Shown here: positions 14,479 through 24,398 of the stretch, piece by piece
How positions within the stretch are numbered: position 1 is the stretch's first letter
Layout: each line of letters begins with the position of its first letter
Source of the DNA: Candidatus Gastranaerophilales bacterium
GTDB lineage: Bacteria > Cyanobacteriota > Vampirovibrionia > Gastranaerophilales > Gastranaerophilaceae
NCBI GenBank assembly: GCA_944325705.1
Contig: CALVBB010000017.1
Coordinates: 1 to 48,137 of the forward strand
Length of the DNA: 48,137 nucleotides
Reading direction: 5' to 3'
The notes under the pieces: model-generated
What the model saw: only the letters and a program-made list of their open reading frames with translations
What the model was told of the DNA's origin: nothing
Database searches by the model: none
Made by a program: the position numbers and the translations under genes

Positions 14479-15378
14479 ATGCAGATATTCACCGAATTAA
14501 ACAATAATCCTGATTTATCCCTTGCTCTCGGGTACTTTGACGGCGTACATCTGGGGCATCAGAAAGTAATCTCCACAGCCGTGAATTTTGCGCATAAAAA
14601 TGGGAATAAATCGGCAGTAATTACCTTTAAAGATCATCCGTGCTGCTTTTTTAAAGGTGTCTGTCCGAAATATATTTTGACCCGTGAGGACAGATTAAAA
14701 CATATTGAAGCCCTCGGGGTTGATTACGTGTATATTCTTGATTTTGATGAAGAGTTAAGCAGGTTTACAGCTGAAGAATATTTGAAAAAGATTTTGATAG
14801 ATAATTTTTCGCCTGTATCTATATCAACAGGGTTCAATCATTATTTCGGGGCAGAAAAATCCGGCGGGGCGGATTTGCTTGCAAAAATGCAAACTGTTTA
14901 CGGGTATAAATATTTTGAGGTTTCGCCGCAGAGGATTAATAATGAAACGATAAGCAGCACAGCAATAAGAAACTCACTCTCAAAAGGGCAGATAAAAAAT
15001 GCTAATGAAATGCTCGGTTACAATTTTACTATTTCCGGAGAAGTTGTGAGAGGGCAGCAATTAGGCAGAAAAATCGGGTTCAGAACGGTAAACCTGATTT
15101 TTCCGCCGGAACTTATTGATTTGCCGTTCGGAGTGTATTCAGTAGTTGTCAGTTACGGCGGTAAGGTTTATAAAGGTATAACTAATTTTGGTATAAGACC
15201 GACAGTTTCCAATACGCATAAATGTTCTCTCGAAACTCATATCCTTGATTTTGATAAAGATATTTACGGTAAAAGAATTTCTGTTGAATTCCTAAATATG
15301 ATTAGACCGGAGAAAAAGTTTGCCTCTATAGATGAGTTGAAATCGCAGATTCTTTTCGATATATCATCAATCAGTTGA
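14479..15378 (+). CDS. ribF: Bifunctional riboflavin kinase / FAD synthetase
   Basis: The protein has 299 residues from the ATG at 14479; an upstream in-frame TTG overlaps the -10 box and is rejected. The N-terminal adenylyltransferase domain has G-Y-F-D-G-V-H-L-G-H-Q and the later I-S-S-T-A-I-R segment. The C-terminal flavokinase domain has G-R-K-I-G-F-R-T-V-N-L, where the usual P-T-A-N loop reads R-T-V-N but keeps Thr and Asn, and then G-I-T-N-F-G-I-R-P-T and L-E-T-H-I-L-D-F-D. It makes FMN and then FAD from riboflavin. Translation is predicted from a leaderless mRNA. Its stop codon overlaps the promoter of pilin B. Confidence 0.95.
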   Translation: MQIFTELNNNPDLSLALGYFDGVHLGHQKVISTAVNFAHKNGNKSAVITFKDHPCCFFKGVCPKYILTREDRLKHIEALGVDYVYILDFDEELSRFTAEEYLKKILIDNFSPVSISTGFNHYFGAEKSGGADLLAKMQTVYGYKYFEVSPQRINNETISSTAIRNSLSKGQIKNANEMLGYNFTISGEVVRGQQLGRKIGFRTVNLIFPPELIDLPFGVYSVVVSYGGKVYKGITNFGIRPTVSNTHKCSLETHILDFDKDIYGKRISVEFLNMIRPEKKFASIDELKSQILFDISSIS

Positions 15379-15403
15379 TATTTTTTGAAAAATATTTTAT
15401 AAT
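15375..15403 (+). promoter_or_regulatory. Promoter of pilin B
   Basis: TTGATA (15375-15380), a 17-bp spacer and TATAAT (15398-15403) overlap the end of ribF. The transcript would start near 15410 and carry AGGAG before the ATG at 15442. This supports 15442 as the true start of pilin B. Confidence 0.75.
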
Positions 15404-15441
15404 AAAATAAGAAACATGAAAATATAATAGGAGATGTAACT

Positions 15442-16267
15442 ATGGGAAACGCACTAATATCAAGAAAAATCGGGGGGGGGGACAAGTAGTTTAAGCTCCT
15501 TAACCAGCATTTGGCGAGGGTTTACGCTTGCCGAGGTGTTGATAACCCTTGGCATCATAGGAATTGTTGCTGCGATGACGCTTCCTACTCTTGTTAACAA
15601 TAAGCAAAATAAAGAACTTCAGACACAGTTTAAAAAAGTTTATTCTGAACTAAACCAGATGTCACGGTTGTTTTACAAAGATTACGGCATGTCTGTTTCT
15701 GAATATCTTGGAGGCACCTCAAACGGTAGTGCGACTTATCAAAAGTTTCTTAATGAAATTTTTCCGCACTATTTTAAAGGAGGGAAGGTCTTGAGCGATT
15801 GGACTTATTCAGATGTTGATGAAGAAACCGGCAGTGCAAATCTAAATGCTCTTTATCCTATTTATAATATGGTTGGAAATTCTATCGTATTTATATGTGA
15901 TAACGGCGGTTTTCAATCTGATGTGGGTGGAAGAATTTATTTGTTTAATGATGTACCGGCTTCCGGTAATAACGGTCCTATTGTCTGTGTTGATATAAAC
16001 GGTCAGAAAAAGCCTAACCGGTGGGGGTATGATTATTTTATGTTTGTATTTACAACAGACGGGTTTGTTATACCAATGGGGCAGCCTCATCCAAACAATG
16101 TGCCTGCCGGGCAAAGTGCTGTAAATCATTTTGTTACGGGTGAAGAATATTGTAAAAGATCTAATGGAAGTTATAGTCAGGAAGCATGTGCTTATTATGC
16201 GCTTGCGGATAAACATCCGTCTGAAGAGGGCAAAAATTACTGGCAGGATTTTCTTGGCAGCAAATAA
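15442..16267 (+). pseudogene. Type IV pilin-like gene B, frame-broken at a G10 tract (possible phase-variable gene)
   Basis: The promoter and AGGAG ribosome site support the ATG at 15442. Ten codons later a run of ten G (15472-15481) puts the frame into a TAG at 15487. With nine G the frame would continue as G-G-G-T-S-S-L-S-S-L-T-S-I-W-R-G and then F-T-L-A-E-V-L-I-T-L-G-I-I-G-I-V-A-A-M-T, giving a 274-residue prepilin. The downstream frame is open to 16267 and carries D-I-N-G-Q-K-K-P-N-R-W-G-Y-D, shared with the other pilins, but not the D-D-Y-P end. It could be ON/OFF phase variation, a decayed gene or a miscounted homopolymer. Without correction, no start with a ribosome site serves the pilin frame. 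Confidence 0.75.
15472..15481 (+). repeat. Homopolymer G10 inside the pilin B leader
   Basis: Ten consecutive G lie 30 bases into the gene, unusual in this AT-rich DNA. A related gene (pilin F) has G5-A-G6 at the same place. Slippage by one G would restore the pilin frame. Confidence 0.9.
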
Positions 16268-16278
16268 TATAAACAAGA

Positions 16279-16306
16279 AAAACTCCCGTTTTCGCGGGAG
16301 TTTTTT
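16279..16306. terminator. Terminator between pilin B and the XRE gene
   Basis: ACTCCCG, loop TTTTCG, CGGGAGT, then T-rich, with A4 on the left arm. It lies just past pilin B and overlaps the stop of the convergent XRE gene, so it probably serves both. Confidence 0.85.
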
Positions 16307-16523
16307 ATTTATCAAATTCAAACAATTCAGGAAGCTTTATTTTTAAAGCTCTTGATATTTTAAAAATCATTAAAAGGCTAGGATTTCTGATGCCGCGTTC
16401 AATAAAGCTCATATATGTTCTGTGAATTCCTAGTTTTTCGGCAAGTTCTTCTTGAGAGAGCTCTGCGGCCTTGCGTTTTTTGCGTACAGCTTCTCCAAAT
16501 TTTTCGAGAATTTTTGTGTTCAT
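16305..16523 (-). CDS. XRE-family helix-turn-helix regulator (next to pilin C)
   Basis: The protein has 72 residues from the ATG at 16523; an ATG at 16562 would add 13 residues and cannot be excluded, as neither has a clear ribosome site. HTH_3 covers nearly the whole protein (A-V-R-K-K-R-K-A-A-E-L-S-Q-E-E-L-A-E-K-L, H-R-T-Y-M-S-F-I-E-R-G). It is divergent from pilin C with a 128-bp gap and tail-to-tail with pilin B. The gap contains GTTAC-N11-GTAAC (16554-16574), a possible operator. It is a probable local repressor. Confidence 0.88.
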   Translation of the reverse strand: MNTKILEKFGEAVRKKRKAAELSQEELAEKLGIHRTYMSFIERGIRNPSLLMIFKISRALKIKLPELFEFDK

Positions 16524-16601
16524 AGGATTAATTTTATGTATATGATACTGTGAGTTACACATACAATAAGTAACAAAATGTTGCTAAGTTAGGCTTATAT
16601 A

Positions 16602-23283: not shown

Positions 23284-23508
23284 TTATTTTTCTTCAAAGT
23301 GTTCAAACTCATTTAAAAATTCCGCGGGAGTTTTCCCAAAGTTAATTGCTATTTTCTCCAGAATATTCATCTTTATTCCCTGTTTTAAATTCTCTATTCT
23401 ACAGAGTATAGCACAATCCACATCTGCTTCCTGGGCAAATTTGTTTAAAGATACTCCTGAGGCTTCTCTTTTAAGTTTTATATATCTGCCTAAATCTTTA
23501 TATTGCAT
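23284..23508 (-). CDS. XRE-family helix-turn-helix regulator (next to pilin D)
   Basis: The protein has 74 residues, almost entirely an HTH_3 domain (Y-I-K-L-K-R-E-A-S-G-V-S-L-N-K-F-A-Q-E-A, I-L-C-R-I-E), with an acidic tail. It is divergent from pilin D. Its start codon overlaps the -35 box of the pilin promoter, and two copies of an ATTGAGAT-type dyad follow within the promoter. This makes it a strong candidate repressor of pilin D and of itself. No clear ribosome site precedes the ATG. Confidence 0.85.
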   Translation of the reverse strand: MQYKDLGRYIKLKREASGVSLNKFAQEADVDCAILCRIENLKQGIKMNILEKIAINFGKTPAEFLNEFEHFEEK

Positions 23509-23559: not shown

Positions 23560-23648
23560 AGTAAGGCGTAAAGATTTTGTTCTGTCGCAGTATGAAAAAA
23601 ATAAGGACTAAGGATTATATCAGTTTGAAAATCTGGAAAGGAGTATTT

Positions 23649-24398
23649 ATGGATAAGAAAAAATTTAATGCGTTCACGCTTGCGGAAGTTTTGATAACTC
23701 TCGGCGTAATAGGCGTTGTTGCCGCACTTACTATTCCGCAGCTTGTTAAGAATTATAAGGAAAAGGTTTTGCTGCAGTAGGCAAAAAAGATGTATTCAGT
23801 TCTCAGCAATGCTCTTGTCGCTTATGCTAATGATATGGGGACACCCGGAGAATACTGGTTAGTTTTTGATGGTTCAAAAACGCGTGCGCAAATTGTCGAA
23901 GGTTTGCTGAAATATTTTACCCCTGTTGAAGTTTGTGATACCCAGTCTGAAATTACGGCAGGAAAATGCGGCGGAGATTATATGATAAGAACTTTTAAAC
24001 GTAAAAACAACGGCAGCGGAAAAAATTCAGTTTATACGAATCTGATGAGGCAAAAAGGCAGAATCGTTTTAAAGGATGGAAGTTTTGTTTCTGTAATGAA
24101 TGATAATACATCTTCCGGTACTTGTTTTTATAACTGGACAGAACGTGTAACTGATGAAAACGGGAATTATACAGGAGAAACTATTGCACGAACATCAGAC
24201 AGATGCGGAAGAATTTATTTTGATGTTAACGGTTTAAAAGGACCTAATCAGTATCAGAATGATGTTTTTGAAATTCAAATTGCTGCAAAAAAATTTTGGG
24301 CAAGCGATTCGCTACAGGGTACAGGCGGACTTGACAGTGCAATACAAAAAGATAACCTTGAAAAAGGTGAAATTTATGACGTGAACGGTGATTTTTAA
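23649..24398 (+). pseudogene. Type IV pilin-like gene D interrupted by one in-frame TAG
   Basis: The ATG at 23649 has AAAGGAG before it. It encodes F-T-L-A-E-V-L-I-T-L-G-V-I-G-V-V-A-A-L-T and then stops at TAG 23778-23780 after 43 residues. The same frame continues without another stop to 24398. It carries A-K-K-M-Y-S-V-L-S-N-A-L, the helix that follows the hydrophobic segment in the other pilins, and D-V-N-G-L-K-G-P-N-Q-Y-Q-N-D. A single CAG-to-TAG change would explain it. The promoter, ribosome site and rest of the frame look undamaged, so inactivation is recent, or the stop is read through, or it is a base error. The C-terminal D-D-Y-P motif of pilins A, C and F is absent. Confidence 0.8.

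Follow-up and report, generated by a model that had tools for sequence, protein, structure and literature searches.

Within the window, by which we mean the whole 48,137-nucleotide stretch of DNA analyzed, a type IV prepilin gene on the plus strand lies behind a run of ten guanines that sets it out of frame with its apparent translation start. A promoter-like site of the form TTGATA-17-TATAAT (15375-15403), overlapping the stop codon of an upstream ribF-like gene, matches at 11 of 12 positions, as the preliminary description of this DNA had proposed, sites of this type being frequent here (7 found versus 3.5 expected). The Shine-Dalgarno sequence AGGAG (15429-15433), read directly from the sequence, is placed 8 nt 5' of the ATG at 15442, which together with nine further codons (MGNALISRKI, 15442-15471) forms a leader whose 30-nt spacing from ATG to tract is common to most module-A copies of the family described below. 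The leader runs into the G10 tract (15472-15481), one base longer than the in-frame length, and its frame then closes at a TAG (15487-15489), leaving the short ORF MGNALISRKIGGGDK with an early stop of a kind conserved across copies. The open-frame scan places the prepilin frame, 261 codons and a stop, at 15482-16267, with its N-terminal methylation helix (FTLAEVLITLG..., 15521-15586) recognized by PF07963 and TIGR02532. A terminator-like inverted repeat with a T run (16278-16309) lies 3' of the pilin gene; the repeat scan scored it on the minus strand, and its plus-strand T run was read from the sequence. The earlier reading of ATG 15442 through G10 into the TAG at 15487, with an intact prepilin frame downstream, is thus borne out, as is the 274-residue prepilin predicted at nine G (13 codons plus the 261-codon open frame); the two frames also coincide at 12 G.

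The encoded protein matches PF07963 at 23.2 bits (cut-off 21.2) and TIGR02532 at 23.9 bits (cut-off 16.3). Its structure model, of middling confidence (mean pLDDT 73.5), shows a helix (3-55) followed by strands, and the best, though weak, PDB match of the model is the pilin 1ay2 (E 1.2, probability 0.13). The genome of the window (assembly G000; 1.95 Mb in 44 contigs) contains 131 prepilin N-terminal motifs (E <= 0.01) and encodes a single prepilin peptidase (PF01478, on contig G000:C23), whose cut is expected between the G and the F of the motif, removing the leader, the polyglycine and the spacer. Compared with its ortholog in genome G012, the window pilin has a dN of 0.031 and a dS of 0.284, that is, a dN/dS of about 0.11, seven other pilin pairs giving 0.06-0.15; the window pilin is accordingly under purifying selection although it is out of frame. 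That the pilin is dead and its frameshift a sign of decay, as the closing of the ATG frame at 15487 might suggest, is hardly credible in the face of this ratio, of 261 codons bearing no other defect, and of dozens of paralogs built alike. Decay of the downstream frame behind a uniform count of ten G, named in the preliminary description as a reason to give up the idea of a switch, is likewise not what is seen, as far as the sequences can be tested.

The prepilin frame is closed upstream of the tract by a TAA at 15455, and no ATG, GTG or TTG was found in that frame of the window locus from this TAA to the tract, nor from there to FTLAE. Because the prepilin frame has no start codon of its own, the pilin can be made only if something joins the two frames. 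Use of another start codon in the pilin frame was rejected for the family, 113 of 135 OFF loci lacking any ATG, GTG or TTG downstream of the last in-frame stop as far as the end of the tract, and so was re-initiation after the tract, the spacer being devoid of a start codon at 84 of 150 loci, the window locus included.

The G10 tract is the sole run of at least eight G in the window (3 overlapping 8-mers against a shuffle mean of 0.28, 3 being reached in 1 of 100 shuffles), and in the whole of G000, where sequence was fetched around all such tracts, 74 runs of G>=8 were counted against about 5 expected and 62 of G>=10 against about 0.2 expected (independent bases). Forty-five of the 74 belong to a module in which a Shine-Dalgarno sequence and an ATG are followed after 22 to 36 nt by the G run. 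Its full layout comprises the Shine-Dalgarno sequence, the ATG, approximately ten codons, the G run, an early stop and then, usually, a type IV prepilin in another frame, and its sequence takes two main forms, ATGgaaaacgcagtaatagcaagg..ttttc[G]caagtagtttaagctccttaacc and ATGcaaaacacaactatagcttcaaaactcaga[G]tagatttacttccgctcagg. Judged against a reversed-pattern control, such modules are common throughout the genus and in several genera of its family, 87 matches being counted in one relative, and they are rare beyond the family; the nearest named relatives of G000 are Candidatus Gastranaerophilales MAGs and one uncultured bacterium. A 1.5-Mb genome of the same genus (G003) has only 4 prepilin motifs and gave no match in the family-wide search for the ATG-polyG pattern. 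A poly-G module lies at or close to the end of many contigs, the cause being repeats, heterogeneous tracts or the two together (in G000, C1:67, C5:1-11, the ends of C6, C13 and C25, C21:52 and C33:213; in G012, the end of C56).

A prepilin motif follows within 400 codons in 177 of the sampled modules, and in 155 of these no stop interrupts the frame between tract and motif, the spacers reaching up to 200 codons. The open spacers of at least 20 codons add up to 6,234 codons; their two other frames contain 443 and 348 stops, and the pilin frame, by selection, 0. Because most of the sampled modules open into the pilin, often through long spacers, the fused frame is probably translated at least sometimes, which suggests the same of the pilin genes behind the tracts. 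At many loci the sequence separating tract and FTLAE looks as if composed of genome repeats that have stayed in frame; the spacer of the window pilin's ortholog in G012 (L194) is at least 135 codons long, compared with about 13 codons in the window gene. The module also occurs as a stand-alone unit, in which leader, poly-G and stop are followed by a terminator-like hairpin and then by a prepilin with its own Shine-Dalgarno sequence and ATG (L028 on the minus strand, L032 and L034 in G000; L132, L182 and L185 in G012; L203, L209, L211, L221, L223 and L227 in relatives within the genus), and the stretch from tract to terminator is conserved among copies in the relatives. These units, found in both genomes and in the sampled genus relatives, and the fact that a short ORF with an early stop is the most constant feature of the family would fit a role for the short ORF (M...GGG..stop) or its RNA as the functional product, for example as a leader peptide or attenuator-like element, with the pilin fusion as a side use. 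We regard this as improbable, given how many modules open into the pilin and given that no Rfam match was found at the units.

The relation between the two frames is not left to chance. For each pilin-linked tract, the offset was taken as whether the ATG, chosen by the best Shine-Dalgarno match, and the prepilin share a frame, the loci of the thinly sampled G009, G010 and G011 being pooled. The genus has 93 such tracts, of which 73 exceed the in-frame length by one base, 12 have the other offset and only 8 (about 9%) are in frame. In another genus (G021), 13 of 15 tracts are again one base too long, and in two further genera (G033 and G018) 31 of 36 are one base too short, the opposite offset. 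The in-frame length itself varies with leader architecture (about 9, 10 or 11), and the observed tract length follows it: the tracts that are one base too long in the genus are G10 at 8 loci that would be ON at 9, G11 at 50 loci ON at 10, and G12 at 15 loci ON at 11. Permuting the tract lengths among the loci of one genome destroys this fit (P 5e-5 in G000, 7e-4 in G012); in G007, G021, G033 and G018 the permutation was not significant, its power there being low because nearly all loci share one architecture. Since the leaders are partly copies of one another, offsets were also counted by leader cluster, and 28 of 36 clusters in the genus share the same modal offset. The proposal that the G10 tract is an ON/OFF switch therefore holds in part. 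The evidence strongly favors a frame gate on a prepilin, but the gate is not a single free switch: there are about 45 modules in G000, and the pilin-linked ones stand nearly all at the same one-base offset, with 8 of 93 ON in the genus, whereas free flipping, or neutral drift, would leave about one third ON.

The poly-G tracts in genes other than pilins provide an internal control. In the same two assemblies, 17 of 27 non-pilin poly-G genes are in frame, as against 4 of 49 pilin modules (Fisher P 6e-7), the 27 being counted after leader modules without a recognized pilin and one doubtful short ORF had been set aside. They include glycosyltransferase-like, adhesin-like and other genes; by eye, the G000 tracts L029, L074, L053, L060 and L023 lie in glycosyltransferase-like and very large adhesin-like ORFs, and L064 (1554-1567) of G000 and L135 (minus strand) of G012 lie in a gene resembling a family 6, ABO-type glycosyltransferase, off frame with G14 in the former and in frame with G13 in the latter. 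Because most of these genes are in frame, the DNA frame evidently matters to the cell. This control also bears on a homopolymer miscount in the assembly, by which the true tract would have 9 G and the gene would be intact. The preliminary description regarded such a miscount as the main alternative; poly-G is hard for Illumina sequencing, several tracts lie at contig ends, and in Bifidobacterium breve a RefSeq call of G11 stood against a majority of G12 in culture (PMC9187656). An error process, however, is blind to reading frame, and it would neither choose one gene class nor make tract length follow the frame across loci, as is observed here. With the same-assembly non-pilin tracts mostly in frame, the pattern recurring in independent assemblies and the early stop of the default frame conserved, the family-wide evidence makes a miscount very unlikely.

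Tract length also differs between species. In three ortholog pairs from sister species the flanks are nearly identical and the tracts are one G apart (L019 G11 and L139 G12; L029 G11 and L184 G12; L064 G14 and L135 G13); one pair lies in a prepilin and two in glycosyltransferase-like genes. These pairs are evidence for the family, the sister contig of the window locus itself breaking off within the leader, at the tract or directly beside it. The tract lengths of most other ortholog pairs do not serve as clean evidence because leader or spacer sequence has been exchanged. A homopolymer far beyond chance inside the 5' end of an ORF and, at the family level, a tract length that differs between orthologs or close relatives are both found, so that the locus would qualify by sequence as a poly-G contingency gene, without the usual balance of ON and OFF, a balance that the non-pilin poly-G genes of the two genomes do show. 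From these features we infer switching within the population. A general mismatch-repair defect was rejected as a cause, at least of the kind tied to MutS, which is present in all 13 genomes of the genus.

The frame that is read by default is also the one that ends early. Of 44 downstream clusters, 35 have a stop within five codons in the default OFF frame (28% expected by chance, P 2e-12), compared with 18 in the other OFF frame, and the identity of this stop varies among TAG, TAA and TGA. In G033 and G018, where the offset is opposite, the early stop is found in the default frame in 14 of 15 clusters and in the alternative OFF frame in 0 of 15. Within each lineage, then, the default frame is the one with the early stop.

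A conserved offset combined with an early zero-frame stop is what would be looked for in a programmed frameshift site, and the family has both. To our knowledge, the known cases of programmed frameshifting or slippage are single genes or IS elements. They resemble the present family in the homopolymer, the conserved out-of-frame layout and the early zero-frame stop (PMC5009743, PMC1088944), and it is conceivable that the one-base-off arrangement is itself the functional state, a fixed fraction of product arising when the RNA polymerase slips or the ribosome shifts frame on the G run. Being off frame could then, as a less probable alternative, be the working state of dozens of prepilins per genome, the direction of slippage (+1 or -1) being fixed for each lineage and the early stop belonging to the device; the outcome might be a low, buffered expression of all these prepilins. 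Such a device would account for an offset kept at one value per lineage over many leaders and compensated architectures, for the early stop typical of recoding sites, and for deviants that are about equally rare in the two directions, the 8 ON and 12 other-OFF tracts looking like stabilizing selection on one exact frame and not like mere selection against ON. In herpesvirus thymidine kinase, moreover, G runs are decoded at a low level (reviewed in PMC5009743). Against it, the direction needed differs by lineage, +1 in the genus and in G021 but -1 in G033 and G018, which sets the family apart from the known recoding systems; the non-pilin poly-G genes of the same genomes are mostly in frame, and tract length differs in the clean ortholog pairs. 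No conserved stimulator was found, the CTCC/TCCT box after the tract, whose pairing with the poly-G was considered and rejected, being mildly enriched (87 of 204 loci versus 49 in shuffles) and clustered mostly at one position. Slippage on DNA combined with selection for a default OFF state is thus preferred as the probable explanation, slippage of the RNA polymerase or the ribosome being the chief but less likely alternative.

On balance, it is likely that the gut Gastranaerophilales-type bacterium possesses a default-OFF repertoire of prepilins gated by slippage. The architecture, the copy number, the conserved offset, the early stops, the intact and selected pilins and the interspecies differences in tract length are the observations underlying this proposal. 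In the predicted mechanism, translation would start at ATG 15442 and, at the majority tract length, the ribosome would leave the tract in the wrong frame and stop a few codons later, so that the default is OFF. A change of one base in the G run, for which replication slippage on DNA would be the likeliest source, would join the leader to the prepilin frame, and the prepilin peptidase would then remove the leader, the glycines and the variable spacer. Because of this removal, all three parts would be free to vary while the mature pilin stays unchanged, and the mature pilin should be identical whether the frames are joined by slippage on DNA or by recoding. Selection would hold each locus one base from ON, and the population would contain rare cells that show different small subsets of the large pilin repertoire. 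Slippage within the population, the rarity of ON cells, surface display and an advantage to the bearer are what we infer from the above.

The proposed gating is worth comparing with known systems. In Neisseria, the type IV pilus gene pilC is subject to phase variation through a poly-G close to its 5' end, and one or two pilus-associated genes are concerned, whereas here a prepilin family with a shared leader module is involved. The closest published case that we found is the sortase-pilin G-tract switch of B. breve, in which a G11/G12 tract splits the first sortase-pilin gene into two ORFs and one frame allows the pilus; tract lengths are mixed in culture, and the length apparently allowing pili is enriched in vivo (PMC9187656). 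Both are gut commensals with a G tract gating a pilin gene, but the B. breve strain has two G-tract loci and Gram-positive sortase pili (PMC9187656), whereas here each genome has dozens of type IV prepilins whose default offset is conserved and whose default frame stops early. In Campylobacter, too, each AT-rich genome contains numerous poly-G tracts inside genes, with the G mostly on the coding strand; the tracts there, however, peak at G9-G10 and, in a larger isolate set, their ON proportion is near the neutral-drift prediction (PMC6321876), while those described here are G10-G13, belong mostly to one gene class and are about 9% ON with one modal offset. Among the papers searched, none links Gastranaerophilales with phase variation, and PMC4451040, one of those that mention pilin, does not describe such gating. 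Uncultured gut relatives of cyanobacteria thus seem to possess a very large number of surface genes gated by poly-G. Their default is held one base from ON and is not random, which suggests selection for a pilus repertoire that is combinatorial and mostly silent or, alternatively, recoding on a genome scale. Automatic annotation will report the gated genes as disrupted or assign them false starts at internal codons.

Two further features of the window concern prepilin genes. A prepilin-like gene at 23577-24398 has a stop near 23780, the rest of its body being open from 23790, and is without a poly-G tract. Small helix-turn-helix proteins, XRE-like by eye, adjoin prepilin genes at 16305-16562 and at 23284-23508, both on the minus strand.
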